From Nitrospirota bacterium (GTDB lineage: Bacteria; Nitrospirota; Nitrospiria; Nitrospirales; Nitrospiraceae): a stretch of DNA of 64,000 bases. Under the pieces are notes generated by a model. It saw nothing but the letters and a program-made list of their open reading frames with translations, ran no database searches and was not told the DNA's origin. The number at the start of each line of letters is the position of its first letter. Within the stretch, counting starts at the first letter, position 1. The stretch lies in the NCBI GenBank assembly GCA_030684575.1, contig JAUXVD010000021.1, positions 1-64,000 of the forward strand. The letters are read 5' to 3'. A program made the translations under genes and the position numbers. Shown in pieces: positions 40,591 to 62,502 of this stretch.

Positions 40591-40606
40591 CGGCCCTGTT
40601 TTTGCT
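40591..40606 (+). promoter_or_regulatory. Sigma-54 promoter of dabB
   Basis: CGGCCCTGTTTTTGCT: GG at 40592-40593 and GC at 40604-40605 with exactly 10 bases between, and a perfect TTGC -12 box. Nearly identical to the dabA2 promoter (CGGCCCTCTTCTTGCT). The predicted start is near 40617, 20-30 bases before the gene. Confidence 0.75.
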
Positions 40607-40648
40607 GATGGATTCTCGATTCCTACGATCACTATAATGGAGCAATCA

Positions 40649-42331: not shown

Positions 42332-42357
42332 AATAGGGCTGAATCGGAGTGTTGGCG

Positions 42358-45300
42358 ATGACCATCGAGAGACAGACGTTCACCGATACGCAGCGCATGG
42401 AAGTGCGCTCCTACGTCCAATTGGCGAGAGAAGTCATTGCCCCGTATTGGCCGATGCGGACCTTCATCCATCACAATCCCTTACATGGGCTGGAAGGGCT
42501 GCATTTCGACGCGGCCATCAAGCGGGGGACACAGCTGTTCGGCGGCCGTGGGTATCTGAGCAACGAGACCTTTCGCCGCTACTTCAAGAGCGGGCGCATT
42601 TCCCCGGAAGACCTGCAGGCCACCATCGAGCCTCTTGCCGCTGCGAAACAGGTGACCTTTTCCGGTCGCACCACATCACACGTGGATGTGCTCATGGCGT
42701 CAATGGTGCACGGCATTTCCGAGACCCGGGTGAGTCAATCCGATCCGCCGGATCAGGACACACAGCAGGCCGTTCGCATGATTGAGTCCTGGCTCAAGGC
42801 CGTGGGCGCCGACGTTACGCCCCCCACCCTGTCGTTGATGCCGTGGGAGCCAGCGGAGCTTCCTCTCCGAGAAACTTGTGCCGTCTGGTGTGACCGGACG
42901 ATCGGCACGACGATCGTCGAGACGATCAACCGTGAAATGGTCAAGTGGTGCAGCGCCTTCCTCGATGAGGGGGAAGCCTCCTGGGCGATGCCGGATCGCG
43001 GCAAGAAGTTTTACCAAGTGTGGAAGTCTCTGGCCACGCACGATATGAGCTTACGGCTCATCGGCATTCGGAATGCGGCGCAGAAAATCGCCGCTCTGTC
43101 CGATCGGTCGGAAGACGCCCTCTTAGAGAGTTTGACGATCTTACAAATTCCCAAAGCCGCGTGGGAGGAATATCTGGCGCACCAGTTAGCGGCCTTGTCA
43201 GGCTGGGCCGGCTACATCAAGTGGCGTGTCGATCAAGGCAACTATCCCTGGCAACAACAGCAGCCGATCGATCTGGTGAAATATTTGGCGGTCCGCCTAT
43301 TTTACGAACGCGAACTGGTCGACCGAAGCTGCCGGGAGGCACTCGGATTTCCTGGAAGTGCCGACGCGATCCGCGCCTACATGGAGCGCTATCCCCACGC
43401 CTACTGGTTCCGCCGGGAATGGGTGGCAGGCTGTGTGGCGACGTCGGCCGCCAAACAGGCACGCCGGCTGAGCAAGGCCGGACGAGGGCCGGACGCCGAC
43501 GCCTGGGAGGAACTGGGCCGTCAGGAGTTTCGCCAGGCGAACGACCGCCGGGCGGAGAAGGCTGTGACCCTGGCCGCGCAGCGACTGCTCGATCTGGCGC
43601 AAGCCCTGGAGATCGATCCTCCCGCCATCGAATCAACCGCTCCGTCTGATGTCCCTGTCCTGCTCAACTGGATCGAAGGATTTCCTGCCTCGCAGCACGG
43701 ACCGCGATGGCTTGAGGCGTTTGAGGCCAGCCACCGCCGACAGGTACTGGCCGAACTGGCGACCGGAGTCCGCAAGGCTGCAGAAAACTCTCAGGCAGGA
43801 GATCACGCGGCCCCTTCACGACCGCTTGCCCAAGTGGTGTTCTGCATCGATGTACGCTCAGAGGTGTTTCGTCGTCACCTCGAACATCGCGGCGGGTACG
43901 AAACCTTGGGGCTTGCCGGATTTTTCGGTGTACCACTAGACTATCAGCCGTTCAATGCACAACATGCGGTGGCCCATTGTCCGGTGCTCCTGAAGCCCAA
44001 AAATCGGATTCGGGAGGTGCCTCGAAGCTATCATGTGGTGCAGGCCGAGCGGCACAAGATGGCGGCGCAACTCAGCAAGGCCGCGCACATGCTCCTGCAC
44101 GACTTGAAGGAAAATATCGTCACGCCCTATGTCATGGTGGAAGCGGTCGGGTGGCTGTTCGGCCTGCCCCTGTTCGGGAAGACCCTGTTCCCTGGCCGGT
44201 ACCACGCGATTTCCCGGTGGTTGAAGGCGCTCCTCATGCCCTCCATCGCCACGACGTTGACGGTCGAGAAAATTACGTGGAGCGAGGGCGAGGAAATGGT
44301 CGCGACCGAACAGCAGGCGAAGATCCGTGAAGTCGTGCGCGAGCGGTTCGGCTTGCACGGCGCGGCTCTCTCGTCCTCGCTCATGGAACAGATTCGCAGA
44401 AAGGCCATGGGAACGGCGGACGGAACCAGCAACGACGTGGCCCGAACCTTGGCCCTGTCGCCGCAGGACGAAGAACTGTTCTACGAGCGGCTCCGCCGGG
44501 AGTACGGCATCAGTCCACGAGGCGTTTCGGATCGGCTCCACCGTATCACGCATACCGGCTTCTCCACGACCGAGCAGGCCTATTTCGCCGAAGCGGCGCT
44601 ACGGCTCATGGGGCTCACCTCAAACTTCTCCCGCGTCGTCCTGTTCTGCGCACATGGCAGCACCTCGCTCAATAACCCCTACGAATCGGCGCTCGACTGT
44701 GGCGCCTGCGGAGGCAACCAGGGCTTGCCCAATGCGCGCGCCATCGCGGCGATGGCCAATAACCCAACCGTGCGTGAGTTATTGCAAGCACGCGGCATCA
44801 AGATTCCAGGCGATACCCATTTCTTCGCCGCGCAACATGACACCACCAGCGATTACGTTCGCATCGTGGATTTGGAGGACGTGCCTGCCACGCACCGGAA
44901 AGATCTCCAGCGCCTGGCAACAGACTTGGCCAACGCCGGGGCACGGACCGCACTCGAGCGAGGCACCTTCCTCGACGAGGGGGCCAACAGGATCGACCCC
45001 TCGACGGCCCAGCAGCAAGCCACGCGACGGGGCGACGACTGGGCACAGGTTCGTCCGGAATGGGGGCTCTCGAAGAACAGCCTCATGGTGATCGGGCGGC
45101 GCGAATTGACTCAGTCCGTCAATTTGCACGGGCGATCGTTCCTCCACTCCTACGATCATCGGCAGGATGCGTCGGGCAGATTACTGGAAACCATCATGAC
45201 GGCCCCGTTGGTGGTGGCGCAGTGGATCAACATGGAGCATTACTTTTCGACGGTCGATAACGAGGTCTACGGCAGCGCCAGCAAGGTCTACCACAACGTG

Positions 45301-45621
45301 GTCGGCCGCATCGGGGTCATGACCGGCGTCTGGAGCGATCTGCGCATTGGTCTGCCCGCCCAGACGGTCTGGAATGGGCACGAGCCCTACCACGAACCTA
45401 TGCGGTTGCTGGCCGTGATTGAAGCGCCCAAAGACCGTATCCGCGCCATCATCAATCGGCAACCGCTGCTTGAACAATTATTCGATCGGAGGTGGGTGAC
45501 GCTCGTGGCCTTGGAACCTCGGGACGGCGCGTTTTATCAGTACGATGGCATGAGCGAATGGACATTATTAGGAGGAGAGTCGCATGATCAGCTTAACACT
45601 GCATCCCATGAAAGAAATTAA
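42358..45621 (+). CDS. dabA: DabA inorganic-carbon transporter subunit (DUF2309), copy 1
   Basis: ATG 42358 (GGAG 8 bases upstream) gives 1087 residues. The carbonic-anhydrase-like zinc ligands of DabA are present: C496 and D498 in VVFCIDVRSEVF, H766 in LFCAHGST, C781 in ALDCGACGG; the H-to-C spacing of 15 matches characterised DabA. Other marks are PYWPMRTFIHHNPLHGLEGL near the start and VMTGVWSDLRIGLPAQTVW near the end. With DabB it is expected to hydrate CO2 unidirectionally to bicarbonate in the cytosol. The last 38 bases overlap the PII-like gene. Confidence 0.95.
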   Translation: MTIERQTFTDTQRMEVRSYVQLAREVIAPYWPMRTFIHHNPLHGLEGLHFDAAIKRGTQLFGGRGYLSNETFRRYFKSGRISPEDLQATIEPLAAAKQVTFSGRTTSHVDVLMASMVHGISETRVSQSDPPDQDTQQAVRMIESWLKAVGADVTPPTLSLMPWEPAELPLRETCAVWCDRTIGTTIVETINREMVKWCSAFLDEGEASWAMPDRGKKFYQVWKSLATHDMSLRLIGIRNAAQKIAALSDRSEDALLESLTILQIPKAAWEEYLAHQLAALSGWAGYIKWRVDQGNYPWQQQQPIDLVKYLAVRLFYERELVDRSCREALGFPGSADAIRAYMERYPHAYWFRREWVAGCVATSAAKQARRLSKAGRGPDADAWEELGRQEFRQANDRRAEKAVTLAAQRLLDLAQALEIDPPAIESTAPSDVPVLLNWIEGFPASQHGPRWLEAFEASHRRQVLAELATGVRKAAENSQAGDHAAPSRPLAQVVFCIDVRSEVFRRHLEHRGGYETLGLAGFFGVPLDYQPFNAQHAVAHCPVLLKPKNRIREVPRSYHVVQAERHKMAAQLSKAAHMLLHDLKENIVTPYVMVEAVGWLFGLPLFGKTLFPGRYHAISRWLKALLMPSIATTLTVEKITWSEGEEMVATEQQAKIREVVRERFGLHGAALSSSLMEQIRRKAMGTADGTSNDVARTLALSPQDEELFYERLRREYGISPRGVSDRLHRITHTGFSTTEQAYFAEAALRLMGLTSNFSRVVLFCAHGSTSLNNPYESALDCGACGGNQGLPNARAIAAMANNPTVRELLQARGIKIPGDTHFFAAQHDTTSDYVRIVDLEDVPATHRKDLQRLATDLANAGARTALERGTFLDEGANRIDPSTAQQQATRRGDDWAQVRPEWGLSKNSLMVIGRRELTQSVNLHGRSFLHSYDHRQDASGRLLETIMTAPLVVAQWINMEHYFSTVDNEVYGSASKVYHNVVGRIGVMTGVWSDLRIGLPAQTVWNGHEPYHEPMRLLAVIEAPKDRIRAIINRQPLLEQLFDRRWVTLVALEPRDGAFYQYDGMSEWTLLGGESHDQLNTASHERN

Positions 45622-45913
45622 GATCGTAGTCGAGGGCGAGCAGGTCAAATTTGTGACCGACATGCTGGATCGTGTCGGCGCAACCGGCTACACGATCATC
45701 AACAATGTATCGGGCAAGGGCCATCACGGATTTCATGAGGGCCATTTGCTCTTTAACGACACCAGCAGCCAGGTGATCGTCTTCACGGTCGTGCCGGAAG
45801 AGCGAGTCGAACCGATTCTGGCGGGCCTGGGTCCGCTCTTCAATAAACATTCAGGCGCGATGTTTGTGACGGACGTGGCCGTCAGCCGTCGTGATCGCTT
45901 CGTCGCCAAATAA
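45584..45913 (+). CDS. PII-like regulatory protein coupled to dabA
   Basis: 109 residues; ATG 45584 with a strong AGGAGGAG 6 bases upstream, inside the dabA end. PII-like ferredoxin fold: MKEIKIVVEGEQVKFVTDMLDRVGATGYTIINNVSGKG, then the short T-loop region HHGFHEGHLLFND, and VIVFTVVPEERVEPILAGLGPLF. It lacks the uridylylation Tyr of GlnB and is closer to the PII-like proteins found beside bicarbonate transporters (the SbtB or CPII role). It probably gates DabAB activity by a nucleotide or carbon signal. The overlap suggests fixed stoichiometry. Confidence 0.85.
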   Translation: MISLTLHPMKEIKIVVEGEQVKFVTDMLDRVGATGYTIINNVSGKGHHGFHEGHLLFNDTSSQVIVFTVVPEERVEPILAGLGPLFNKHSGAMFVTDVAVSRRDRFVAK

Positions 45914-46037: not shown

Positions 46038-48008
46038 ATGCCTATGCCTTCCTCACGTCGATCACGTCCCAAGCTATCCGCCCAGGCGCAATCGGACATC
46101 GCCGCCGGGGAAGTCTTGGTGTGGCTCAGTGACTGCATCCAGGGCGGCCTCTGTTTTGTGTCCCACGGCGCCGTGATCTTCGAAAACGCGCAGTTCGGAG
46201 AGCTGGTCGAGGCACCTCATCCGGGGTCGGAGCTTCCGCTGCGAACGCGTCTTCTCGATGAGGCGATGGCCTGGAATCACGAACCGCTCGGAGCCCGTGA
46301 CACAACGGAATATCGCATGACGGATCGACAGGGCGATCCGCTCATTTACGAATGCCGATTCAACGTCGTTCCCTATCGCGGCGACAACGGCGTGCTCATC
46401 GTGCTGGAAAATGTCACGGAGCGGACTCTGCTCTCGCAGGAAGCCTCCCAGGTGGCCCGGTTTCAGTCGGTCCTCGCGCGCATCGGAACGCTGGCGGTGA
46501 GCGGAACCCCGGTCCAAGAAATCATGAACGAGGCCGCGCGCCTGACGGCCGAGGCCTTGCACGTGGAACTCTGCAAAATTCTCATTCCTCGTGAGTCGGA
46601 TGAGCACCTGTATCTCGTCGCCGGTACCGGGTGGCCTGAAGGGCTCATCGGAACCTTGACGGTAGAGGGAGGTACGCATTCTCAGGCGGGTTTTGCGATC
46701 CGCGAACGGCAGCCGGTAGTCGTGCGCGACTTGCGCACAGAAACGCGCTTCATGCCCTCGAAGCTCCTGTCGGAACATGGCGGCATTGCCGGCATGAGTG
46801 TGCCCATGATGGTGCAGGATCGGGTGTACGGGGTCATGGGGGCGCACTGCAAGTCCGTGCGTGATTTTTCACCCAAAGAATTGGAGTTTCTCCGCTCGGT
46901 CGCCAACACGGTAGCCACCGTGCTCGAACGATGGCGGCGAGAAGAAACGCAGCTTCAGCTCTATCACCGGATGTTCGAACTGGTGCAGGACGGCGTCATG
47001 TTAACCGATACGCAGGGGGCGCTCCTGGAATGGAACCCCGCGATGGAACGTCTGTCGGGCTGGACACGGCACGAGGTCATCGGGCGAACGCCGTCGTTAC
47101 TGAGATCCGGAAAGCATCCGCCGGAATTCTTCGAGCGCATGTGGCAGACGATCCGCTCCGGGTCGGCCTTCGTCGACCGTGTGGTGAACCGCCGCAAGGA
47201 CGGGTCCGAGTTTCTGGCGTGGGAAAGCGTGAGCCCGGTCAAAGACCCGGACGGGACCATCCGCTACTTTCTCGCCATCCTGACCGACCTCAGCGAGCGC
47301 GAACAGATGCTGGAAGCCCTGCGCCATACGGAACAGGTGAAACTCGTCGGCCAACTCGCCGGCGGCATCCTCCACGAAGTCCGCAATCCTCTTATCGGAC
47401 TCGGGAGCCTCGCCACCCATCTGGCCGACCAGGACACGCTCCCTCAAGCCGCGCGCGACCGGTGCCGCTTGATCGCGCGCGAAGCGGCGCGGATCGACGA
47501 CCTCCTGGAATCTCATCTTGGGCAGTTGCGGCCACGACCCTTCGAGATCGCCCCCTGTGACCTGTCCTCGCTGCTTGACGACACCCTGACCCTGTTGCAT
47601 CCGAACCTATCGAAGCACCGCGTGTCCGTGAAGAGAAACCTGGCCGCGAACCTTCCCTTGGTGGAGGCCTCGCGAGCCCATATGCTCCAGGTGTGTCTGA
47701 ACATCGCCATGAATGCGATCGACGCGATGCCGAACGGCGGAGAATTGACGATCACCCTCAGGCCGGAGACCAGGCGAGGCCTAGGGCTGCTCATGACTGT
47801 CGCCGATTCCGGGAAGGGCATCTCCCCTGAAAACTTGCAGCGCATCTACGAACCGTTCTTTACGAATGGAAAAGCCAAAGGTGTCGGTCTTGGGCTGACC
47901 ATTACCCGCGACATCATCGAGCGACATGGCGGCCACTTGCTGATTCACAGTCCACCTGGCAGCGGGGCCGTCGTGGACGTCTGGCTTCCACTGAAATGCG
48001 AGGGCTAA
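46038..48008 (+). CDS. Soluble histidine kinase with GAF and PAS domains
   Basis: 656 residues, no TM helix. Order: an N-terminal PAS-like region (about 20-135), GAF (about 150-300: GTLAVSGTPVQEIMNEAARLTAEAL...ERQPVVVRDLRTETRF), PAS (about 315-430: VQDGVMLTDTQGALLEWNPAMERLSGW), HisKA with GQLAGGILHEVRNPLIGLGSL, and HATPase (QVCLNIAMNAIDAMPNGG, DSGKGISPENLQRIYEPFFT, GVGLGLTITRDIIERHGG). NtrB-like architecture. It lies 1 base before the sigma-54 regulator and 124 bases after the PII-like gene. A cytosolic metabolic signal is likely sensed. Confidence 0.93.
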   Translation: MPMPSSRRSRPKLSAQAQSDIAAGEVLVWLSDCIQGGLCFVSHGAVIFENAQFGELVEAPHPGSELPLRTRLLDEAMAWNHEPLGARDTTEYRMTDRQGDPLIYECRFNVVPYRGDNGVLIVLENVTERTLLSQEASQVARFQSVLARIGTLAVSGTPVQEIMNEAARLTAEALHVELCKILIPRESDEHLYLVAGTGWPEGLIGTLTVEGGTHSQAGFAIRERQPVVVRDLRTETRFMPSKLLSEHGGIAGMSVPMMVQDRVYGVMGAHCKSVRDFSPKELEFLRSVANTVATVLERWRREETQLQLYHRMFELVQDGVMLTDTQGALLEWNPAMERLSGWTRHEVIGRTPSLLRSGKHPPEFFERMWQTIRSGSAFVDRVVNRRKDGSEFLAWESVSPVKDPDGTIRYFLAILTDLSEREQMLEALRHTEQVKLVGQLAGGILHEVRNPLIGLGSLATHLADQDTLPQAARDRCRLIAREAARIDDLLESHLGQLRPRPFEIAPCDLSSLLDDTLTLLHPNLSKHRVSVKRNLAANLPLVEASRAHMLQVCLNIAMNAIDAMPNGGELTITLRPETRRGLGLLMTVADSGKGISPENLQRIYEPFFTNGKAKGVGLGLTITRDIIERHGGHLLIHSPPGSGAVVDVWLPLKCEG

Positions 48009-48009: not shown

Positions 48010-49410
48010 ATGGCATGGCAACTTCTACTGGTCGAGGATGAAGCGTCCGTTCGGGAGGCCTTCGCCCTGCGTCTCACCGGCCAGGGCTACCTCGTCCAAA
48101 CGGCGGGATCGGGGGAAGACGCCCTCACCCTCCTGCGCTCCTTCGAGCCGGATATCCTGGTGTTGGATCTCGTCATGCCCAACCTCTCGGGCCTGGACGT
48201 CCTCGCCCGGGTGAAACAAACCACACCGGAGCTTCTCGTGATCGTGCTGACCGCCAGAGGAACGGTAAAGGATGCGGTCGAAGCCATGCGGCTCGGGGCC
48301 TTCGATTTTGTGGCTAAGTCCATCGACATGGACGATCTCCACCACACCCTGCGCCGCGCAACGGATCTGCTCACGCTGCGCCGGCAGGTCCAACTGCACA
48401 CCAGTCAGGATGCAAAGGGCTATGCGATCGATCGCATCATCGCAAACAGTCCCGCCATGCAGACGTTTATGCAGCAGGTTCGGGAATTGGCCAAGAGCGA
48501 TCGCGTGACGGTCCTGCTCCAAGGCGAGACCGGGACCGGCAAGCAGTACATGGGCCGCGTGATCCATTTCAACAGTCCACGGGCAGACAAGCCCTGCATG
48601 GAAGTGGATTGCCCCTCTATCCCGCGCGAACTGTTCGAGAGCGAATTGTTCGGCCATGAGAAGGGATCGTTTACGGGGGCTGCAGGACGAAAATGCGGAC
48701 TGCTCGAACTGGCCGATGGCGGGACGGTCCTCTTCGATGAAATCGGCGACTTGCCGCTCCCCCTGCAGGCGAAGCTCTTACGGGTGATCGAAGAGCGGAC
48801 GTTGCGTCGCGTCGGAGGCGCGGCCACGATCCCTGTGGATGTCCGTTTCATGGCCGCGACGAATCGTGATCTCAAAGAGGCGGTCGCGAAGGGCGAGTTT
48901 CGCGAGGATCTCTACTATCGGCTCAACGTCGTGACGCTCACCGTCCCGCCGCTCCGCGAACGAGGCGACGAGATCATTCCTCTCGCCGAGCAGTTTCTCA
49001 TTCGTTCTGCGGTGGCGCTCAAGAAGCCGGTCCGCACATTGGGCGCGAGCGCACAGGCCCTCTTGCGCCAATACCGCTTCCCCGGCAATATCCGTGAGTT
49101 GAGCAATCTCATGGAACGGGCCGTCCTGTTCTGCCAAGGCTCAACCCTCGAAGCCGCCAACTTTCCCTCCGATGTCCATAGCGGAAGCCTGCCATCGGTC
49201 CCAGCAGCGCAGACACATCCGATTCCTGCATCGGATGCGTCCGATCCCACCGCCGTCCAGATCTCCTTTCGAGTCGGAGAGCAATCGCTGAACGATCTTG
49301 AAGATCGGATCATCGCCGAGGTGCTGCAGCGGTCAGACGGCAACAAGACCCTAGCCGCCAAACATCTCGGCATCACGCGCTGGATGCTGGACCGGCGGCG
49401 CAAACCGTAA
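48010..49410 (+). CDS. Sigma-54-dependent response regulator of the dab region
   Basis: 466 residues. Receiver domain with Asp in DILVLDLVMPNLSG; AAA+ domain with Walker A GETGTGKQ, contact loop GSFTGA (residues 219-224, Ala to Ser variant of GAFTGA), [13 protein letters not shown] (Walker B), and LRERGDEIIPLA; C-terminal Fis helix-turn-helix GNKTLAAKHLGITRWMLDRRR. It is the natural activator of the four sigma-54 promoters at 40591, 49676, 54661 and 63543, whose shared palindrome could be its binding site. The last of these is about 14 kb away. Confidence 0.93.
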   Translation: MAWQLLLVEDEASVREAFALRLTGQGYLVQTAGSGEDALTLLRSFEPDILVLDLVMPNLSGLDVLARVKQTTPELLVIVLTARGTVKDAVEAMRLGAFDFVAKSIDMDDLHHTLRRATDLLTLRRQVQLHTSQDAKGYAIDRIIANSPAMQTFMQQVRELAKSDRVTVLLQGETGTGKQYMGRVIHFNSPRADKPCMEVDCPSIPRELFESELFGHEKGSFTGAAGRKCGLLELADGGTVLFDEIGDLPLPLQAKLLRVIEERTLRRVGGAATIPVDVRFMAATNRDLKEAVAKGEFREDLYYRLNVVTLTVPPLRERGDEIIPLAEQFLIRSAVALKKPVRTLGASAQALLRQYRFPGNIRELSNLMERAVLFCQGSTLEAANFPSDVHSGSLPSVPAAQTHPIPASDASDPTAVQISFRVGEQSLNDLEDRIIAEVLQRSDGNKTLAAKHLGITRWMLDRRRKP

Positions 49411-49675: not shown

Positions 49676-49691
49676 CGGAACTCTATTTGCA
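49676..49691 (+). promoter_or_regulatory. Sigma-54 promoter of the exported-protein operon
   Basis: CGGAACTCTATTTGCA: GG 49677-49678, GC 49689-49690, 10 bases apart, TTGCA perfect. Predicted start near 49702, 23 bases before the ATG. Confidence 0.75.
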
Positions 49692-49724
49692 ATAGCTTCA
49701 GGAGACAACCAGGGAGCGAGACCC

Positions 49725-50729
49725 ATGAAGACTCTGTCCTTCGTCATCGTCCTGCTTCTGACCAGTGCGTCTGCCTGGGCGGCAATGGTGCAACCCGTTC
49801 CCGCGACAAGCTCAACGTCGTCGGAACAGATTGTGCCCGATCATGTGATTCTGTTTGTGCTGGAAGGAGTCGATCAGCCGGCGCTCACGGCGGGGCCGAT
49901 GCCGGTCCTGAAGCGCCTTGTACAGGATGGGGCCGTGACATGGTCGGCCGCAACGAGTACGCCTCCGCTTCGCCTCCCGGCCATGGCCTCCCTGCTCACG
50001 GGGCTACCGGTCGAGAAGCACGGCATCACATGGAACACCTTCGAATTCAGCCGAGGCTATCCTCGCCCCCCCACGATCTTCGACTATCTCGACCTCAGCG
50101 GCGGGCGGGACAGCGCCATCTTCCTGATGGACGAATCGCTCTACCAGCTCGCGAAACCGGAACCCTATACGGATTATCAGCTGTGCGGGCCGCTCAAGCC
50201 GGAATGCAGTCCGGAGCGGCTCGTGTCCTATATCAAGCAGTATTTCAAGAAGGCGACGAGCGGCCATGGATATGGGCATGCGATTCTGGCGCTGCCGCAT
50301 CTCCTCGTGGTGCATCTGCCGGATGGAGGGCGCGCCGGCGTCGAGCGAGGCTGGACCTCGAAGAACTATCGCACAGCGCTCCAGTCGGTGGATCGGGCGA
50401 TGGGGTCAGTGCTGGAGATCTTCAAAGAGCATGGATTGCTCACGCGCACCACGGTGTTTGTCACGTCTTTGAGTGGGACCGGCGCGACGAAACCAACAGC
50501 GGCAGAAGCGCAGACCACACCCGTCTCATCGCTCGTCCCCTGGATTGCCTCCGGTGTCGGGATTAAGACCGGACATGCGATTCGTCAGCCCGTCTCCATT
50601 GTAGATACCGGCGCAACAGTGCTGCGGGCGTTTCGAGTTGAGACGCATACCGAGTGGGACAGCCGTGTGGTCGAGGAGATCTTTCGCGACGCCGGCGCCA
50701 TATCCGCTATTCCGACGAAGGGACGGTGA
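49725..50729 (+). CDS. Exported alkaline-phosphatase-superfamily protein with lost metal ligands
   Basis: ATG 49725 (GGGAG upstream) gives 334 residues with a signal peptide (FVIVLLLTSASAWA). Fold marks of type I phosphodiesterases/nucleotide pyrophosphatases are present: DHVILFVLEGVDQPAL, STPPLRLPAMASLLTGLPVEKHGITWN, and VDRAMGSVLEIFKEHGLLTRTTVFVTS. But the usual D-x-x-GHxxGW reads PDGGRAGVERGW, and the DHG after VTS reads LSGTG, so two metal-binding sites look destroyed. It is probably a binding or structural protein rather than a hydrolase. First gene of a sigma-54 operon through cysD. Confidence 0.82.
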   Translation: MKTLSFVIVLLLTSASAWAAMVQPVPATSSTSSEQIVPDHVILFVLEGVDQPALTAGPMPVLKRLVQDGAVTWSAATSTPPLRLPAMASLLTGLPVEKHGITWNTFEFSRGYPRPPTIFDYLDLSGGRDSAIFLMDESLYQLAKPEPYTDYQLCGPLKPECSPERLVSYIKQYFKKATSGHGYGHAILALPHLLVVHLPDGGRAGVERGWTSKNYRTALQSVDRAMGSVLEIFKEHGLLTRTTVFVTSLSGTGATKPTAAEAQTTPVSSLVPWIASGVGIKTGHAIRQPVSIVDTGATVLRAFRVETHTEWDSRVVEEIFRDAGAISAIPTKGR

Positions 50730-50735
50730 TTGCGC

Positions 50736-51197
50736 ATGACCTCTGCCGACTACAAGCCGCGCCTTACTACGCAGATCTGGCGCATAATCCTGGGTTGCGC
50801 CTCTGTCGCATGGATTACGTGGGTGGGGGCCGACGCTATCGCAGATTCGCGTGAAACGTCGGCGAAGGCCTATGCCATCACCATCGATGCCACGTCGATC
50901 GTGTCCCAAAGCTGGTGGCAGGTGCCGGGCGTGACTCCCTCGATTTGGACCTCCGATCCAGAGACGTCCGATGCCTATCGGACATCGGAGCCTCGCGATC
51001 TTCAGTTGAAGCCGGGCCAATATAAATTCATCAGCTTCACGTTCGACTTTCCCTTTGAGGTGACGCCGGAGGGAGCCGTGGCATATGCACCGACACTCGA
51101 TCAATGCGTGGAGGGACGTGGCACACACACCTTGATCGTGCGATGCAAGCGGACCTATCCGCATGGGGGACAGCCGGAGTATTCCTTCGCTCCATGA
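50736..51197 (+). CDS. Small exported protein of unknown function
   Basis: ATG 50736, 6 bases after the previous stop (a TTG at 50730 is also possible); 153 residues. An N-terminal hydrophobic signal (IWRIILGCASVAWITWVGADAIA) is followed by a beta-rich domain: AYAITIDATSIVSQSWWQVPGVTPSIWTS, LQLKPGQYKFISFTFDFPFEVTPEGAVAYA, and two C-terminal cysteines (DQCVEG, IVRCKR) about 14 apart that may pair. I do not recognise a family. It is in the sigma-54 operon and likely periplasmic. Confidence 0.72.
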   Translation: MTSADYKPRLTTQIWRIILGCASVAWITWVGADAIADSRETSAKAYAITIDATSIVSQSWWQVPGVTPSIWTSDPETSDAYRTSEPRDLQLKPGQYKFISFTFDFPFEVTPEGAVAYAPTLDQCVEGRGTHTLIVRCKRTYPHGGQPEYSFAP

Positions 51198-51217
51198 ACC
51201 AGGAACAGAGAGGCACT

Positions 51218-53596
51218 ATGGGAACGCAACATCGTTTGACGAAGTGGTTGTTCGTGATGCTGGCGCTGGCCGGGTCGGCACTGGCTCACGATAGAGCGGC
51301 TGCCGCCGGGACTAAGCCGGCAACACCCGCACAAAACGGCCCGGCTCGCATCGTGTCGCAATATGGTGCGGCGCTCGCCGCGAGCCGGGTGACAGAGTGG
51401 GCTGCACTCGATTTGGGTTGCTTGACGCTCAGGCGCCAACGAGGCCTATCCGAACAGACCGACAGGGCCTGCTGGGACGGCACGCTGAAGGTCCATCGGG
51501 AATTGGTCCAGGATCATCCGGAAACCGGAATCTTCGAGTCGGTGGGGCGGGGGGTTGGGTTCGGCTTGCTGTCCGAAACACATCGCCATGCCGATTACTG
51601 GAAGGACTATATGCCGGCGGTCGCCGTCTCCCCTGCCGTAATCGGCAGCGAGGAGGGAGCAGGTCCCGCCCTTGAAGTCCTCACCGTCTCACCCACCAGA
51701 CCCTTCGCCTTGAAAAATCTCACAGGGAAAGATCCGGTGGGGGTTTCCGGCCATACCGTCGAGATCAGGGTATCCTATCCGGATCCTCTGACGGCTCCTC
51801 TCGCGTTGCGCCCAGGAGAGGTATGGTGGGCCAGCGGCGTCCTGCGCCGATACGGTCCGGTCAAAGAAATGACGGTCCGATTCGTGGTGGTTTCAGGATT
51901 GCGAAAGCTGGGCTATCCGGTCGATCAGGCCGTCATCAATGAGGCCCTCCCCGATGCGCCGGTGCAGGTCGGCATTCATTATGGGCGTCTTCCGAAAACA
52001 AGCGATCCCGGTGGGCAGCAGAACGAAGAGGTCAAGAATCGCTTAGGGGCCGGCGGGCTCGTCCTGGGTTCCGCTCGCTGGTGGGACCTGAAGGACGCGC
52101 GACCGATCTTTGCCACCGCGCTGGCACGCGCCAAACAGATGCCACGCTCCGTTGAACGGACCAGGCTTCTGACTCGGCTGACCTTGATCGATTCAGACGA
52201 TCCGGCCTTGCACAGGGTCATCGCCGACGACAAGTTTCGGACTTTTATCTTAGAAGGTCTGGCAAAAAGTGAAATCTCTGGACCGGATAGTACGGTGACG
52301 GAGAAGCTGGCAGAATTGTATTGGAACTTTCAGGCGCAGAGTTGGCGCCAGGAGCTCACGGAAGTCGCAAAGGGGCACTCTCACGCAGCGGAGGCGTTCT
52401 ACCAGGCCATCGATTCCCTTGAGCATGTCACGAGCGGCGGACGGGCGACTCCCGAAGAACGGAGGCAACTCGGCGCACTCTCTCGATGGAACAACGATGC
52501 GACCACCGCGCTGACGGTGCATGAAGCACTGCTGAACGACATCGCCCCGGAAGGACCTCTTCATGGCCGGCTGTTATCCGAACTCGCCTGGGACCGGATT
52601 CAGTGGCTCTCCTGGGAGCGCCGATACGGGCATCCCTGGCTGGACCAGGCCCGCCAAGAGGCCGAGCAGGCGTTGAGCCAGGTCGAGACTCCCGTCGATA
52701 AACTCGTGGCCGCATATGCGTTGGTTCTGGTGGAGGCCCTGCGGGTGCCGCGCGAGCCGGCGCGCCTCCAGGAACGACTGCGCACCGTGAAGACCTGGCA
52801 CGATCGCGTGACCGGCGTTGCCGGCCTGTGGCCCCATCTCATCGGGAACGACATGGTGAAGGCCTTGGTGCCTGGCGGTACCGAAGTGATGCTGCCCATG
52901 ACGGATCGTGCCGCCGACGTGCTCGATGTCGAAATCCATTCCCAACCGCCGCAGCAGGATATTGTGTGGCAGTGGAACTTCGACCAGGATGTTCCCCAGG
53001 CACTGCCCGTGGGATTCGTGGCGGTGAGTACGCCTGGAGCGAAGCCCTCTGGCTGGCATGTGCTCCCGGACGGCCAGATCCCCACGCCCGGGAAACTGGT
53101 CGTCCAGGATCTCCCATGCGGGACAAGCGATTGCGCCCATCTGCTGCTGGCCGATCGCATCCGCACCACCTATCCTGACATCGCGGTACAGGTCCAGGTT
53201 CTGTCGGCAGACGGCAGTGGCGAAGCCGGAATCGCACTAGCTGTGCGCGACAACCGGAATTTCTATGCCGTCACGCTCAATCCCTCGACAGGCAGGCTGA
53301 CCACGAGGCGCGTGGCCGACGGCCGCACGACGGTGCTGGGGGACATCCCGGTCAAGCTGACCCAACGTCCGTGGCATAGCCTGCGAGTTCAACGAATCAA
53401 TTTCATTCACCTGGATCGCGGACGCCTGAGTGTATTTATCGACGGAGCCCAGGTCGCCGCAGTGGCGGACGAGTGGATCACGGGGGACGGGTCGATCGGG
53501 CTGATCACGTTCGGCCGAACCGCGGCACAGTTCGACGGGCTCCACCTGCTCGATCTCGTGTCGAATCGCACGCTGTCTGGCCCCGCAGCCTATTGA
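51218..53596 (+). CDS. Large exported protein with a C-terminal lectin-like domain
   Basis: ATG 51218 (GAGAGG 4 bases upstream) gives 792 residues with a signal peptide (WLFVMLALAGSALA). N-terminal about 250 residues: beta-rich (GFGLLSETHRHADYWKDYMPA, VEIRVSYPDPLTAPLALRPGEVWW). The middle, 280-570, is helical and reminiscent of repeats (ALHRVIADDKFRTFILEGLAK, RLLSELAWDRIQWLSWERRYGHP). C-terminal about 200 residues: a concanavalin/DUF1080-like sandwich (DIVWQWNFDQDVPQALPVGF, GEAGIALAVRDNRNFYAVTL, RLSVFIDGAQVAAVADEWITGDGSIGLITFG). Such folds usually bind glycans or ligands. No known family assigned. It ends 27 bases before cysD. Confidence 0.8.
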   Translation: MGTQHRLTKWLFVMLALAGSALAHDRAAAAGTKPATPAQNGPARIVSQYGAALAASRVTEWAALDLGCLTLRRQRGLSEQTDRACWDGTLKVHRELVQDHPETGIFESVGRGVGFGLLSETHRHADYWKDYMPAVAVSPAVIGSEEGAGPALEVLTVSPTRPFALKNLTGKDPVGVSGHTVEIRVSYPDPLTAPLALRPGEVWWASGVLRRYGPVKEMTVRFVVVSGLRKLGYPVDQAVINEALPDAPVQVGIHYGRLPKTSDPGGQQNEEVKNRLGAGGLVLGSARWWDLKDARPIFATALARAKQMPRSVERTRLLTRLTLIDSDDPALHRVIADDKFRTFILEGLAKSEISGPDSTVTEKLAELYWNFQAQSWRQELTEVAKGHSHAAEAFYQAIDSLEHVTSGGRATPEERRQLGALSRWNNDATTALTVHEALLNDIAPEGPLHGRLLSELAWDRIQWLSWERRYGHPWLDQARQEAEQALSQVETPVDKLVAAYALVLVEALRVPREPARLQERLRTVKTWHDRVTGVAGLWPHLIGNDMVKALVPGGTEVMLPMTDRAADVLDVEIHSQPPQQDIVWQWNFDQDVPQALPVGFVAVSTPGAKPSGWHVLPDGQIPTPGKLVVQDLPCGTSDCAHLLLADRIRTTYPDIAVQVQVLSADGSGEAGIALAVRDNRNFYAVTLNPSTGRLTTRRVADGRTTVLGDIPVKLTQRPWHSLRVQRINFIHLDRGRLSVFIDGAQVAAVADEWITGDGSIGLITFGRTAAQFDGLHLLDLVSNRTLSGPAAY

Positions 53597-53623
53597 ACGG
53601 GCCCTTGTGGCCGGAGGACTCCT

Positions 53624-54421
53624 GTGCAACATCTTCGCGACCTCGAAGACCAAAGCGTCTATGTGATCCGTGAGTCCTACAAACACTTCGACAACCTCGC
53701 CATGCTCTGGTCGATGGGCAAGGACTCGACCGTGCTGCTCTGGCTTGCACGCAAGGCCTTCTTCGGGCATGTGCCGTTTCCACTGGTACATATCGATACG
53801 GGTTACGAGATGCCGGAATTGATCGACTATCGGGACCGGCTCTGCCGAGAGTGGGGGCTCAATCTGGTCGTCGGCCAGAACAAGGAGGCCTTGGCGGAAG
53901 GTATGAACCACACGGTCGGACGCGTAAGCTGTTGCTCGGCCCTCAAGATCGAGGCGCTCAAACAGACCATCGCCACACATGGGTGGACGGCCGTCATTCT
54001 CGGCATTCGCGCGGACGAGGAAGGCACGCGGGCGAAAGAGCGCTACTTCTCGCTCCGGGACAAACATGGAGAATGGGATTTCCGCGACCAGCCTCCGGAA
54101 CTGTGGGATCAGTACAAGACAACGTTTCCCGCCGGTTCTCATGTACGCGTGCATCCGCTGCTGGATTGGACCGAACTCAACATTTGGGAGTACATCGAGC
54201 TGGAGCAGATTCCCCTGCCGAACCTGTACTTCGACCGGGGCAACGGCACCCGTTATCGGAGCCTCGGTTGCGTGCCTTGCACGGGAACTGTCAACTCCTG
54301 TGCGAACACGATTCCACAAATCATCACGGAGTTGCGGACCACGACGACCGCTGAACGCGCCGGTCGGGCACAAGACGAAGGCCGCGGCATGGAAACCCTC
54401 CGCAAACTCGGACATATGTAA
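53624..54421 (+). CDS. cysD: CysD-like ATP-pyrophosphatase (sulfate adenylyltransferase subunit 2 family)
   Basis: GTG start with GGAGG 6 bases upstream; 265 residues against about 300 in E. coli CysD. PP-loop [120 protein letters not shown]. The middle segment carries SCCSALK and the end has a CxxCx7C arrangement not typical of CysD. There is no adjacent cysN (GTPase partner). It may adenylate sulfate with a distant CysN, or act on another oxyanion. Last gene of a sigma-54 operon of exported proteins, an odd place for sulfate activation. Confidence 0.82.
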
Positions 54422-54660: not shown

Positions 54661-54676
54661 CGGCCCTCTTCTTGCT
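54661..54676 (+). promoter_or_regulatory. Sigma-54 promoter of dabA2
   Basis: CGGCCCTCTTCTTGCT: GG 54662-54663, GC 54674-54675, 10 bases apart, TTGCT. Only two differences from the dabB promoter. Predicted start near 54687. Confidence 0.75.
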
Positions 54677-54741
54677 GTATGTAGAGGGACAAGGGACAGA
54701 AGGGAATGGTGAACAGCATGACACAGGCGAAGGAGAAGCCG

Positions 54742-57700
54742 ATGCCCTATACCGACGTGCAGCGAATGGAGCTGCGCTCCTATGCCAACCTCGCAGGCGA
54801 GGTGGTGGCGCGTCTCTGGCCGATGCGGACCTTCATCTCAAGAAATCCGCTGCAGGGACTTGAGTCGCTTAGTTTCGACAAGGCCGTGAGCCGGGGAGAA
54901 GAGCTCTTCAGCGGGCGGGGGTATTTATCCTCTGAGGCCTATCGCGACGCGTTTCGAAGCGGGCGTATCCAACAGCGGCATCTGGATGAGGTCTTACGGT
55001 CGCTCGACTCCGGGAAAGAAATTGTCTTCGGCGATCGCAGGCTTTCCCACCTGGACCTTCTCCGTGCCGCGATGGTGCATGGCGTGCAGCCGTCCTCCTC
55101 CGACCGATCCGCACCGGCCGGGTCCGGATCGCCACGCGAGGACGCCACGTCCCTCGCCCAACTCACGCAGTGGATCACAGCAATCCTAAAATCCGATGTG
55201 TTGGCCGAGAGTGAGAGCCTGCGCCTCTGTGAGCCGGACGAGTGGCCCTATCGGGAAACGATGGCCACCTGGTGCGATCGGACGATCGGGACCGATCTTG
55301 ATGACCAAATTAACCGCCAATTGATCAAATGGAGTGCCGCCTTCTGCGACGAGGGGGAAGCCACCTGGTCGATGCCCCGTCGCGAGGGCACATTTTTTCG
55401 TGCCTGGAAGACTGCCGCGCAGCATGACCTGAGTCTGTCCTTGCTCGGAATCGACCGGGCATCGGAAAAAATCAGCGCGTTATCAGACCGCCCCGAGGAT
55501 GCGCTCCTGGAATCGCTTGAGCGACTGAAGGTCCCCACATCGGCGTGGGAGGAATATCTCTCGCGCCATGTAGCGGCATTGCCGGGATGGGCCGGATTCA
55601 TTAAATGGCGTGCCGAACAAACGGCGTATCCCTGGCAAGAGGCCTATCGCATCGACTTGGTGAAATATCTCGCCGTGCGCCTGTTCTATGAGCGGGAGCT
55701 GGTGGACGTCTCCTGCCGGAACAGTTTGAACTGCTCAGGGAATATCGAGGCGATTCAGGATTATGCGCGGCGGTTTCCCCATGCAGTCTGGTTTCGCCGT
55801 ACGCTCCTGAAGGGACAGCTCCCGAAGAAAGCCTCGGCGGATGCCGCGAGGCTGCAGGGCTGGTGGCGATCGTCGGATGCCCAGGCCTGGGAGGATCTCG
55901 GTCGGCGGTGGTACGGCGAGCACCGGCTTCTCCGCCTGGAAGAGGCCACCACCGACTATGCCCGCACCCTATTACGGCTGGCTGAGGCCCTCGACATCCC
56001 CACCGAGCAGATCGTCTCGATGGCGCCTGGCGATCTCAGGACGCTCCTGCACTGGTTCCGGGCCTTTCCAGAACAGCTGCATGGCTCCAAGTGGCTGGAG
56101 GCCTATGAACGTTCGCACCAGGCCATAATCCTGCGGCAGCTGGACACGCAGGCTCACGGCGACGTCCGTCTACAGCGCCATGGGAGCCCTGTGCGTCCGC
56201 CCGCGCAGCTCGCCTTTTGTATCGATGTGCGATCGGAAGTCTTTCGCCGGCATCTGGAGCAGCGCGGCGGCTATGAGACCTTCGGTTTTGCCGGATTCTT
56301 CGGGTTGCCTGTCGCCTATCGCGCGCTCGGCACAGACTTTTTGACGGACCTGTGCCCGGTGCTCCTCAAACCGAAGCACATCGTTCGCGAGATCCCGCGG
56401 ACCTATCAGAACGGGGCCGCGCTGCGACGGAAATCGAGCAGCCAGATGGCCAAGGTCGGACATGACCTGCTGCAGGATCTCAAACACAACGTCGTGACGC
56501 CCTATGTCATGGTGGAAGCGATCGGATGGCTCTTCGGATTGCCGTTGTTAGGAAAGACGCTTTGTCCTCGCTGGTATCATCGAGTGGCAACCTGGCTGAA
56601 GCACTTGTTTATGCCTGAGGTGGCCACGACCTTGACGGTAGACAAACTCCCCGCCGTTGAGGCGGAAGAGATGGTCGCGGCCGAGCAACGGATAGATATT
56701 ACACGATGGCTGCGTGCGAGATTCGACGTGCCGGGCCACCGGCTGACGGCTGACAGGCTTGAGGGCATCCGGCGTCAGGCTCTGGGAGAAGGCCCAGAGC
56801 TCCAGTCGGCGTCGGGCGATCTCGGTCATCTCCTGGCTCTCTCGACGACGGAGGAAGAGGCCTTGATCGAGGACCTCCGCCGTGAATGCCGGATCACGCC
56901 TCGCGGCACCGCAGCCCAGCTCGCGCGGATCGCGCAGAGAGGGTTCACGCTGACCGAACAGGCGTACTACGTGGAGACCTCGCTTCGGCTCATGGGCTTG
57001 ACCTCATCCTGGTCGCGCCTCGTCATCCTGTGCGGGCATGGGAGCACCTCACAAAACAATCCCTATGAATCGGCGCTGGATTGCGGCGCCTGTGGAGGGA
57101 GCCATGGGCTTCCAAATGCACGCATGTTCGCGATGATTGCCAACCGGCCACACGTACGCGAGCTATTGGCGAAGCGGGGCCTGTCCATCCCGGCGGACAC
57201 CCATTTTCTCGCGGCCCTCCACGACACGACGACGGATCACGTCCGGATCGCGGATCTGGAAGATGTGCCGCCGACGCACCGCAAGGAGCTGGCGCAGGTG
57301 CTGGAAGACGTGAACGAAACCGGGTCCATGGCTGCCGCTGAACGAGGGATCGCGCTGCAGGCCGCGTCCACCCGGCACGATCGTCGAAACTCGCTGCAGG
57401 ACGTGCAACTCCGCAGTATGGATTGGGCGCAGGTCCGTCCTGAGTGGGGCTTGGCAAGAAACAGTCTGTTCATTATCGGGAGCCGACAGTTGACGCAGGG
57501 GGTCGATCTTGAGGGCCGATCCTTCCTGCATTCCTACGACCATCGGCCAGACCTGGACGGGAAGCTGCTGGAGATCATCATGACGGCGCCCCTGATCGTG
57601 GCGCAATGGATCAATCTGGAATATTACTTTTCAACGGTAGATCCGGAGACCTACGGCAGCGGCAGCAAGGTGTACCACAATGTGACGGGTCGTATCGGGG

Positions 57701-58005
57701 TGATGACGGGGGGGCAAAGCGACCTCCGGATGGGATTGCCCGTTCAGACAGTCATGAACGGCCCGCGCCCATACCATGAGCCCATGCGCCTGACGGCCAT
57801 TATCGAAGCCCCGCGGGACCGGATTTCTTCCATCATCAATCGCCAGCCGCTGCTGCAGGGGATCTTCAACAATCGGTGGCTTCACCTGATCGCCTACGAA
57901 CCGAGCGAACGGCGATATTATCGCTATGAGGGCGCAGGAGAATGGGTTCACGTCACCATTGAGACCGTCGATAACGAAACGGCTGTCGCCGGCGAGCGGG
58001 CCTAA
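54742..58005 (+). CDS. dabA: DabA inorganic-carbon transporter subunit, copy 2
   Basis: ATG 54742 has AAGGAG 6 bases upstream and aligns with copy 1 (PYTDVQRMELRSYANLAGEVVARLWPMRTF); upstream ATGs at 54718 and 54706 add 8 or 12 residues. 1087 residues. Zinc ligands are conserved: C493 and D495 (LAFCIDVRSEVF), H766 (ILCGHGST), C781 (ALDCGACGG). It is clearly homologous to copy 1 along its whole length but well diverged. It has no dabB of its own and its own sigma-54 promoter, so it may share DabB or be an alternative subunit. Confidence 0.94.
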   Translation: MPYTDVQRMELRSYANLAGEVVARLWPMRTFISRNPLQGLESLSFDKAVSRGEELFSGRGYLSSEAYRDAFRSGRIQQRHLDEVLRSLDSGKEIVFGDRRLSHLDLLRAAMVHGVQPSSSDRSAPAGSGSPREDATSLAQLTQWITAILKSDVLAESESLRLCEPDEWPYRETMATWCDRTIGTDLDDQINRQLIKWSAAFCDEGEATWSMPRREGTFFRAWKTAAQHDLSLSLLGIDRASEKISALSDRPEDALLESLERLKVPTSAWEEYLSRHVAALPGWAGFIKWRAEQTAYPWQEAYRIDLVKYLAVRLFYERELVDVSCRNSLNCSGNIEAIQDYARRFPHAVWFRRTLLKGQLPKKASADAARLQGWWRSSDAQAWEDLGRRWYGEHRLLRLEEATTDYARTLLRLAEALDIPTEQIVSMAPGDLRTLLHWFRAFPEQLHGSKWLEAYERSHQAIILRQLDTQAHGDVRLQRHGSPVRPPAQLAFCIDVRSEVFRRHLEQRGGYETFGFAGFFGLPVAYRALGTDFLTDLCPVLLKPKHIVREIPRTYQNGAALRRKSSSQMAKVGHDLLQDLKHNVVTPYVMVEAIGWLFGLPLLGKTLCPRWYHRVATWLKHLFMPEVATTLTVDKLPAVEAEEMVAAEQRIDITRWLRARFDVPGHRLTADRLEGIRRQALGEGPELQSASGDLGHLLALSTTEEEALIEDLRRECRITPRGTAAQLARIAQRGFTLTEQAYYVETSLRLMGLTSSWSRLVILCGHGSTSQNNPYESALDCGACGGSHGLPNARMFAMIANRPHVRELLAKRGLSIPADTHFLAALHDTTTDHVRIADLEDVPPTHRKELAQVLEDVNETGSMAAAERGIALQAASTRHDRRNSLQDVQLRSMDWAQVRPEWGLARNSLFIIGSRQLTQGVDLEGRSFLHSYDHRPDLDGKLLEIIMTAPLIVAQWINLEYYFSTVDPETYGSGSKVYHNVTGRIGVMTGGQSDLRMGLPVQTVMNGPRPYHEPMRLTAIIEAPRDRISSIINRQPLLQGIFNNRWLHLIAYEPSERRYYRYEGAGEWVHVTIETVDNETAVAGERA

Positions 58006-58045
58006 GCCGCGTCACGCAGGTGCGGTACGAGTAAAGGAGAGAGGT

Positions 58046-59431
58046 ATGCCGGATACGGATTCGATGAAGTTCCCGCGATATCAGGCGGTTCCGTTCTCCT
58101 CCTACAAAGAGGTGACCGATTTTCTGCGCGAACTTGAAACCGCCTGCATCCTGCGCGGCCAGCCCTCGGACGGCACCGTCAGCTTCGGAGCCCTCGCACG
58201 ATGTCTGCACGAACTCGGCCGTCCAGACCGAGCCTACCGGTCCGTACACATCACCGGCACCAACGGAAAAACCAGCGTGAGTCGTATGACGGCGGCGTTG
58301 ATCCAAGCCAGCGGGATGAAGGTCGGACTCTATACCAGTCCCCATCTCGGACATTTTCGAGAACGGATCGCCGTCAACGGTCAGCCGATTAGCGAACGGG
58401 AATTGCTGGATGCCTGCAACCACCTCAAGTCGCTGATGGACTGGGCAGGAGCCGAACTGACGTCCTTTGAGTTTCTCACCGCCGCCGCCTTCTTCGCGTT
58501 CCGCACGGCCAAGGTGGACTATGCCGTCGTCGAGGTCGGTATCGGCGGGCGGCAAGACGCCACCAACATCATCGCGCCCGAGGTGTCGGTCATCACCAAC
58601 GTGGACTACGACCATATGGATATTCTGGGCGACAGGCTGGAGCAGATCGCCGCGGAAAAATCAGGGATCATCAAACCGTTGACTCCCGTCGTCTGCGGGC
58701 CCATGCAGGAGGGTCCTCGATCGCTGATTCTGTCGCGGGCGGAGCAGCTGAAGGCTCCGGTCTTGTCGATCGGACAGGAGTATGACACCAGTGATTTCGT
58801 GCGCACCGGGTACCGTGGAACATGCACGATTCGAGTCGGAAGCACCATCTGGGAAGAGGTCACCGTGGATTCCCCCGCCGCCTTTATGGCCACCAACGCC
58901 GCACATGCGGTCGCCGCCTATGATGTCCTTCGACGCCGCGGGTTGGTCACGGCCTTGGATGGACCGGCGCTTCGTCACACATTCGAACAGATTCACTTGC
59001 CGGCCTGCTGTGAAGTACTTCCCGGACATCCGACGATCATCATCGACGGGGCCCACAATGCGCCGGCTGCCGCCAGTCTCTCTTCAACCATCCGAAGCGT
59101 CTGTGAAGGCCGCCGAACGGTGTTGCTGGTCTCGCTTTCACGGGAGAAAGAGTTCGAAAAAATTATCCGGCATCTGGCCTGTGCTGGAGCTGACCGGGCC
59201 ATCTTCACCCGGTATCCACAGGATCGCTCGGTCGACCCTCAGGATCTTTCGGATATCTGGCGATCCTGTACGCCGGCCGCGGCAGAAATCGTGGGCGACC
59301 CCGATGATGCCTTTCGCAGGGCAGTCCAAGGAGCAGGGTCTCAAGGGCTTGTCGTGGTCACCGGGTCTTTGGAGTTGGGGGGCTATTGCCGTCCCCTCGC
59401 GCAAGCGGCGTTATCGGACGTTGGCGTCTAA
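58046..59431 (+). CDS. folC: Dihydrofolate/folylpolyglutamate synthase (Mur-ligase family)
   Basis: ATG 58046 (AAAGGAGAGAGGT upstream) gives 461 residues. P-loop VHITGTNGKTSVSRMTAALI, YTSPHLGHFRERI, ELTSFEFLTAAAFFAF, VGIGGRQDATNI, ITNVDYDHMDILGDRLEQIAAEKSGIIK, and HPTIIIDGAHNAPAA. FolC adds glutamate to dihydropteroate or tetrahydrofolate. It follows dabA2 by 40 bases and could be co-transcribed from its sigma-54 promoter, though housekeeping promoters may also exist. Confidence 0.93.
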   Translation: MPDTDSMKFPRYQAVPFSSYKEVTDFLRELETACILRGQPSDGTVSFGALARCLHELGRPDRAYRSVHITGTNGKTSVSRMTAALIQASGMKVGLYTSPHLGHFRERIAVNGQPISERELLDACNHLKSLMDWAGAELTSFEFLTAAAFFAFRTAKVDYAVVEVGIGGRQDATNIIAPEVSVITNVDYDHMDILGDRLEQIAAEKSGIIKPLTPVVCGPMQEGPRSLILSRAEQLKAPVLSIGQEYDTSDFVRTGYRGTCTIRVGSTIWEEVTVDSPAAFMATNAAHAVAAYDVLRRRGLVTALDGPALRHTFEQIHLPACCEVLPGHPTIIIDGAHNAPAAASLSSTIRSVCEGRRTVLLVSLSREKEFEKIIRHLACAGADRAIFTRYPQDRSVDPQDLSDIWRSCTPAAAEIVGDPDDAFRRAVQGAGSQGLVVVTGSLELGGYCRPLAQAALSDVGV

Positions 59432-59553
59432 CCGCCTCATGTGACGCCGGAGTTTCGACGCGCATACTGCCTCCGGGGAGGATGGAAGGTGCATCGAAAC
59501 CCATCAAACGAGAAACATTACCGACAATGCGGTGTCGAGATAAGGAGGATGCG

Positions 59554-62417: not shown

Positions 62418-62502
62418 CGACTGTCGCGCCTGTAGTCATGGATATAGAGGTGACGGATATTTTGACGGATTTCGTTCCTGCCACACCACGAGCGCTGATG
62501 GA

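Follow-up and report, generated by a model that had tools for sequence, protein, structure and literature searches.

The locus raises the question of why a gene for a CysD-like ATP-pyrophosphatase lies with genes for three exported proteins behind a sigma-54 promoter, between two dab loci of a Nitrospiraceae genome, and whether these genes belong to one system. Nitrospira are the dominant nitrite oxidisers and comammox bacteria, and are reductive-TCA autotrophs. DAB/MpsAB systems supply bicarbonate, the SulP family includes BicA-type bicarbonate carriers, and CO2 is a substrate of the isocitrate dehydrogenase (IDH) in the reductive TCA cycle (PMC10880623, PMC8552792). DAB genes are co-located with reductive TCA genes, the Nitrospirae are among the groups likely to be adapted to low CO2, and how reductive-TCA autotrophs supply CO2 and regulate this supply without carboxysomes is a further question (PMC10880623).

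Locus architecture and sigma-54 sites

We analysed a stretch of 64,000 nucleotides, referred to as the window, in which the following features were located:

40591..40606, + strand: sigma-54-type -24/-12 site CGGCCCTGTTTTTGCT upstream of dabB, conserved in dabB upstream regions
40637..42331, + strand: dabB, NuoL-like DAB subunit (NCBIfam NDH_I_L 3.5e-86), with dabA directly after it
42349..45621, + strand: dabA1 (PF10070 1.5e-271), with the motifs CIDVR, HG and DCGAC all found
45584..45913, + strand: P-II-like protein (PF00543 1.7e-24)
46038..48008, + strand: GAF-PAS sensor histidine kinase, from Pfam domains
48010..49410, + strand: NtrC-type sigma-54 response regulator (PF00158 2.9e-65)
49676..49691, + strand: sigma-54-type site CGGAACTCTATTTGCA of the PDE-small-792aa-cysD2 operon, kept in orthologous spacers
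49725..50729, + strand: exported pseudo-phosphodiesterase (PDE) of the alkaline-phosphatase superfamily, ATG start (PF01663 7.9e-19)
50736..51197, + strand: small exported protein, 6 bp after the PDE gene
51218..53596, + strand: 792-aa exported protein, 20 bp after the small gene
53624..54421, + strand: cysD2, CysD-family ATP-pyrophosphatase paralog, GTG start, 27 bp after the 792-aa gene, with a CC...CxxC and HIDTGYE signature
54661..54676, + strand: sigma-54-type site CGGCCCTCTTCTTGCT upstream of dabA2, conserved in dabA2 upstream regions
54706..58005, + strand: dabA2, second DabA (PF10070 4.0e-270), whose start may be the ATG at 54742
57926..59431, + strand: folC ORF (TIGR01499 5.3e-97), a regular dabA2 neighbour, with the true start inside the ORF
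59518..61332, + strand: exported five-TIG-domain protein (PF01833), which trails the module in relatives
63621..63998, + strand: isocitrate dehydrogenase start, reductive TCA (PF00180 4.2e-28), a recurrent neighbour

The four genes from PDE to cysD2 are packed 6–27 bases apart, as the first-pass annotation had described (gaps of 6, 20 and 27 bp, with coordinates that hold), and they do lie between two dab loci, dabB-dabA1-PII-kinase-NtrC upstream and dabA2 downstream. DabA (PF10070) adjoins the NuoL-like DabB in the window, the arrangement that identifies a DAB locus, and the gene order downstream of cysD2 is DabA2-FolC-TIG protein-Sua5-LarB-IDH.

Three near-identical -24/-12 sites occur in the window, upstream of dabB, of the PDE-cysD2 operon and of dabA2. 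Sites were scored with a simple purpose-made weight scheme, and expected counts were obtained from dinucleotide-type shuffles. In counts that are not independent, since the site-bearing upstream sequences are related, a score of at least 16.5 was reached by 18 of the 25 spacers behind regulator orthologs (3.9 expected), by 15/15 dabA2 upstream regions (2.0 expected) and, in relatives, by 9/10 SulP upstream regions (0.5 expected), and a score of at least 15.5 by 19/19 dabB upstream regions (4.5 expected). The internal gene dabA1, used as a control, had no site beyond chance, with 6/25 upstream regions scoring at least 15.5 compared with 9.1 expected. A common motif, approximately CGGCCCTnTTCTTGCT, lies at similar distances upstream of dabB, dabA2 and SulP, and the source genome of the window encodes RpoN; a GG-N10-GC -24/-12 site, an NtrC-type activator and RpoN are thus all present, and the sigma-54 promoter proposed in the first-pass annotation is well supported by its recurrence in orthologous spacers. 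Because the motif recurs upstream of dabB, the operon, dabA2 and SulP, and RpoN is present, the DAB genes and the PDE-cysD2 operon, joined by SulP in relatives, appear to form a single predicted sigma-54 regulon; at the level of sequence, the comparison demonstrates the architecture of this regulon and the conservation of its promoter sites.

Two classes of CysD and their neighbourhoods

The assignment of the last gene of the operon as CysD-like was confirmed: CysD2 matches PF01507 with an E-value of 3.1e-44 and the NCBIfam CysD subfamily model PRK05253 with 354 bits (cut-off 195). Its score with TIGR02039, a model that fits the long proteobacterial-type CysD, is 266 bits, below the cut-off of 396.6. 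An identity as a phosphorothioation protein was rejected, the matches being weak (SspD 4.6e-5, DndC 0.015) and the CysD scores strong. The source genome has a second CysD, CysD1, which is 74% identical and lies on another contig, beside sulfite reductase and CysH and beside CysN, of which this genome, the one where the count was made, has a single copy. The description of CysD2 as an orphan is therefore correct in place, as no cysN adjoins it, but not genome-wide, because a full CysD-CysN-CysH set is present on another contig; that the genome lacks cysN was rejected for the same reason. The first-pass annotation had counted the discovery of cysN elsewhere in a known pathway against its reading, and cysN does lie elsewhere, with a different CysD.

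Intact operon-type CysD2 was found in 27/147 genomes of the family, with 83–100% identity to the window copy, clearly apart from the housekeeping copies, which are about 72–77% identical to it. In a tree of 132 sequences, CysD2 forms one clade (support 100/95, or 99/91 when two deeper sequences, L213 and L244, are included), sister to all sampled Nitrospirales CysD1; as the latter include other families of the order, the CysD1/CysD2 split is old. In genome-matched comparisons, identity between genomes averaged 87% for CysD2 and 92% for CysD1, and identity between CysD2 and CysD1 within a genome averaged 72%; judged by these alignments, CysD2 evolves somewhat faster than CysD1 yet is well conserved. 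CysD2 is dispensable, because pseudogene remnants with in-frame stops persist behind the sigma-54 regulator in two genomes (G062:C1:1121705-1122295 and G128:C76:62613-63287).

The fixed differences between the two classes cluster after the HxDT motif, which is followed by GYEM in CysD2 and by SYKI in CysD1. Residue 62, beside this ATP motif, is Glu in 33/33 CysD2 and Lys in 95/95 CysD1, so that CysD2 does not have the Lys of the HxDTxxK segment of CysD. The Lys is also found in CysD of Gemmatirosa, Parabacteroides, Azospirillum, Paracoccus and Bradyrhizobium (Gemmatimonadota, Bacteroidota and alphaproteobacteria), and the exceptions among the other CysD checked were one phylum entry with Asp and one Streptomyces plasmid copy with Asn. 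The PP-loop, Arg-rich and ATP-binding motifs are intact in CysD2 and common to CysD1. Compared with CysD as sulfate adenylyltransferase subunit 2 (1zun; PRK05253, TIGR02039), CysD2 has full-length homology, the PP-loop SxGKDS, HxDT, the Arg-rich loop and the LGC motif, but it is shorter, shares CC plus CxxC with APS reductase, has K62 replaced by E and is without a cysN partner gene. Compared with the assimilatory APS reductase CysH (2goy), the CC...CxxC of CysD2 aligns with the cysteine quartet and its DTG-Y-x segment is closer to CysH than that of CysD1 is, whereas the C-terminal catalytic-Cys segment of CysH is missing and both tree and scores group CysD2 with CysD; an APS-reductase identity was rejected on these grounds. 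The four cysteines (C103, C104, C216 and C219) are invariant in 31 CysD2 and 83 CysD1 and align with the 2goy quartet, and CysD2 thus carries a putative four-cysteine ligand set of the APS-reductase type (CC plus CxxC). It is possible, from this alignment, that Nitrospirota-type CysD is a [4Fe-4S] ATP-sulfurylase subunit. The quartet and the short length are also seen in Nitrospirota and Gemmatirosa CysD (L064:10289-11224, which is G000:C19; window 53624-54421; L332-L335; L340), and no such quartet occurs in the CysD checked from proteobacteria and Bacteroidota.

The two classes occupy different surroundings. Among CysD1 loci of family genomes, CysN is present in 56/59, CysH in 59/59 and a DAB, SulP or carbonic anhydrase gene in 3/59; DAB, SulP or carbonic anhydrase genes are present in 26/27 CysD2 loci, and neither CysN nor CysH adjoins CysD2 in any of the 27. 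The 27th CysD2 locus (L156) is truncated at a contig end, and L201, with a near-identical gene set, shows SulP. Alignments and gene maps together establish two CysD classes with exclusive neighbourhoods and a Lys62-to-Glu change. The order DabB-DabA1-PII-kinase-regulator-CysD2-DabA2-FolC is found in L145-L151, with dabA1 missing in some; other orders are kinase-regulator-792aa-CysD2-SulP-Usp-IDH (L206), kinase-regulator-CysD2-SulP (L154), carbonic anhydrase-CysD2 (L155) and, in N. moscoviensis (L199), 792aa-CysD2-PDE-small-Sua5-TIG-DabA2-FolC-IDH with no adjoining kinase/regulator pair. MpsC, IDH and the split IDH C-terminal domain recur beside CysD2. Kinase orthologs occur in 51/147 family genomes, namely in 25/27 with CysD2 versus 26/120 others, counts that ignore phylogeny; shared ancestry inflates all such presence/absence tests. 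Two CysD2 loci have no kinase or regulator nearby, L155, by a Tat-type beta-carbonic anhydrase, and L162, by SulP pieces. Kinase, regulator and CysD2, together with DAB or SulP, make up the conserved core.

The three CysD1 loci that do have carbon genes (L232, L247 and L251, from three Nitrospira genomes) carry a second-type DabA-PII pair, different from the CysD2-type, directly upstream of the SiR-CysH-CysD1-CysN operon. This arrangement is a second, independent physical link of carbon uptake and sulfate assimilation.

The exported proteins

Signal-peptide-like N-termini of the PDE, small and 792-aa proteins were judged by eye. The PDE protein shares fold-level homology with bacterial NPP-type phosphodiesterases (Xanthomonas NPP, 2gsn) but is without their nucleophile and metal ligands: in the alignment, EG stands in place of DG, Arg in place of the nucleophile Thr, and both metal sites, DxxxH and DH, have disappeared, so that neither the Thr nucleophile nor the Asp/His metal ligands of an NPP phosphodiesterase were found. 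The degenerate phosphatase fold reported by the first-pass annotation is thus real, as the PF01663 match and these losses agree. A PDE paralog in the core genome has the same catalytic losses. Neither the small nor the 792-aa protein has a Pfam match. The small protein gave a weak beta-sandwich model (pLDDT 62), with a best Foldseek E-value of 3.6e-3 to a CnaB-like domain; it had been called a member of no known family, which agrees with the Pfam result, but it does have a core paralog, which likewise follows the core PDE paralog. In the 792-aa protein, residues ~20-560 resemble a core family of ~570 aa and residues 582-792 a core family of ~275 aa. Its model (pLDDT 77) comprises a beta domain, a helical-repeat middle and a C-terminal CBM66/ConA-like domain (580-782), the last aligning with 4azz with Z 19.6 and an rmsd of 2.6 over 160 residues; the fold-search matches listed were mostly to this domain and barely probed the N-terminal and middle parts. 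The lectin-like character noted earlier is accordingly retained for the modelled C-terminal domain at fold level. That the three exported genes are unique was rejected, since core-genome paralogs exist.

At the core locus (G000:C8; L065:9838-11301), the PDE and small-protein paralogs are followed by HEAT-repeat-like proteins, and the core phosphatase paralog is present in 140/147 family genomes. In L083, a divergent 792-aa homolog is flanked by a carbonic-anhydrase-like gene on one side and a DabB-DabB-DabA cluster on the other.

The PDE, small and 792-aa genes are missing from many genomes, and in G055, G038 and G098 they lie elsewhere (L067-L069) while CysD2 stays with DAB (L145-L147). The exported genes form a module that is separable in part, and because CysD2 stays with DAB where this module sits elsewhere, the core link is regulator-CysD2-carbon uptake and not the four-gene operon. 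The neighbourhood conservation that the first-pass annotation proposed as a check therefore applies to the sigma-54/CysD/DAB linkage, which is found in relatives including N. moscoviensis, but does not extend to a fixed system of all four genes.

A predicted inorganic-carbon regulon and its alternatives

On balance, the region is probably part of a Nitrospiraceae sigma-54 regulon for inorganic carbon, presumably for low CO2, with a recruited specialised CysD isoform. From what is known of DAB, SulP and IDH, from the low-CO2 adaptation of Nitrospirae and from the gene maps, we infer a low-CO2 regulon, the signal being suggested by gene content. The GAF-PAS kinase and the NtrC-type regulator would activate the -24/-12 promoters of dabB-dabA1-PII, PDE-small-792aa-cysD2 and dabA2, and the same pair would control the promoter of the SulP (bicarbonate/sulfate) transporter in relatives. 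DAB and SulP would increase the bicarbonate within the cell to feed the reductive TCA cycle; the CO2-using IDH of this cycle is encoded next door. CysD2 would be a paralog, old and specialised, of the subunit that catalyses the ATP-sulfurylase reaction; freed from cysN/cysH, it would be retained for an adenylation needed under carbon shortage, serving either as a second possible partner of the single CysN or in CysN-free adenylation. These are the activity and partner that we infer. The exported proteins, namely binding proteins and a pseudoenzyme, may form an envelope module that is optional and turned on together with the regulon, a presumed role most simply read as an envelope change accompanying the carbon response, with position and the shared promoter as its two ties.

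For CysD2 itself, a specialised adenylating isoform is favoured, and the main rival is a second ATP-sulfurylase subunit that pairs with the housekeeping CysN and boosts sulfate activation once the regulon is induced, with no new chemistry, e.g. feeding Fe-S-rich reductive TCA enzymes or using SulP-imported sulfate. This reading is a serious if tentative possibility: CysD2 scores as CysD, its PP-loop and Arg-rich motifs are intact as in CysD1, CysN is available in the source genome, the neighbouring SulP can be a sulfate carrier, and DabA-PII lies directly upstream of SiR-CysH-CysD1-CysN in three genomes. However, the complete absence of CysN and CysH beside CysD2 in 27 loci, the invariant charge reversal beside the ATP motif, and a clade that is separate and old all argue against a mere extra subunit. 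It is rather doubtful that CysD2 no longer activates sulfate at all and acts without CysN as a carbon-responsive adenylating enzyme, e.g. in adenylate signalling or in supporting bicarbonate use; if so, it would be the first ATP-pyrophosphatase known as part of a system for inorganic-carbon uptake.

The regulon could instead respond to sulfate or another nutrient, with DAB and SulP as anion supply and CysD2 as a sulfur gene. CysD2 and SulP are both compatible with sulfur, and P-II-like proteins and NtrC-type regulators also serve nitrogen control, but the recurrence of DabA/DabB, MpsC, carbonic anhydrase and CO2-using IDH, together with a CysD2 gene set that never includes CysH or sulfite reductase, makes this unlikely. 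Shared inheritance, i.e. a stable block of one bacterial family with no joint function, would account for the restriction of every case to Nitrospirales and for the decay of CysD2 in some genomes; it appears quite unlikely given that the neighbourhood has been put together anew in different genomes, with DAB, SulP or carbonic anhydrase as its carbon genes, and that physically separate units have the promoter motif in common. Very improbable is a module that makes or removes sulfated envelope glycans, in which CysD2 would give APS/PAPS, the lectin-like protein would bind the glycan and the phosphatase-fold protein would act on sulfate esters. The CBM66/ConA-like domain and the alkaline-phosphatase superfamily membership of the PDE protein fit such a module, whereas the phosphatase-fold protein is without catalytic residues, the mapped loci showed neither a sulfotransferase nor CysC, and CysD2 often occurs without the exported genes.

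The locus is real, conserved and more coherent than the first-pass annotation supposed, and it is a variant of the known DAB locus that does not amount to a system of an entirely new category. It resembles DAB/MpsAB systems in the DabB-DabA pair, the P-II-like protein, the MpsC relatives, the nearby IDH and an autotrophic host predicted to need CO2/bicarbonate supply, and differs in a second DabA with its own sigma-54 promoter, a dedicated kinase-NtrC pair, a CysD paralog and an exported module. In the papers searched, we found no description of these four features for DAB loci, nothing specific on DAB in Nitrospira, CysD with DAB or CysD Fe-S clusters, and, as the first-pass annotation had maintained, no described system of such composition. 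What makes the locus interesting is the regulon together with the divergence of CysD2 from CysD1: carbon-uptake genes share a sigma-54 switch with a diverged CysD and, in many Nitrospira, also with several exported proteins, a hint that carbon uptake is tied in some unstudied way to an ATP-cleaving enzyme of the sulfur type. The regulon gives a concrete testable set of a kinase-regulator pair, a promoter motif and a target list, partly present in cultured N. moscoviensis, and the CysD2/CysD1 split is a natural experiment on an ATP-sulfurylase subunit gaining a new role, with the same genome, a single CysN, exclusive neighbourhoods and one charge reversal.

Between the TIG gene and IDH, the window encodes Sua5, which is bicarbonate-using, and a LarB-like protein (NF033503, 263 bits), LarB being CO2-using (61389-63210); LarB occurs again near CysD2 in L066 and L156. 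With a LarB gene downstream, a LarE identity of CysD2 was considered and rejected, as the LarE model gave an E-value of 0.0056 only. IDH is apparently split into an IDH of ~338 aa followed by a separate 116-aa protein (window 63621-63998; L320:3622-5027), and the 116-aa protein, tested on the L077 ortholog, matches the bacterial IDH C-terminal domain PF18324.
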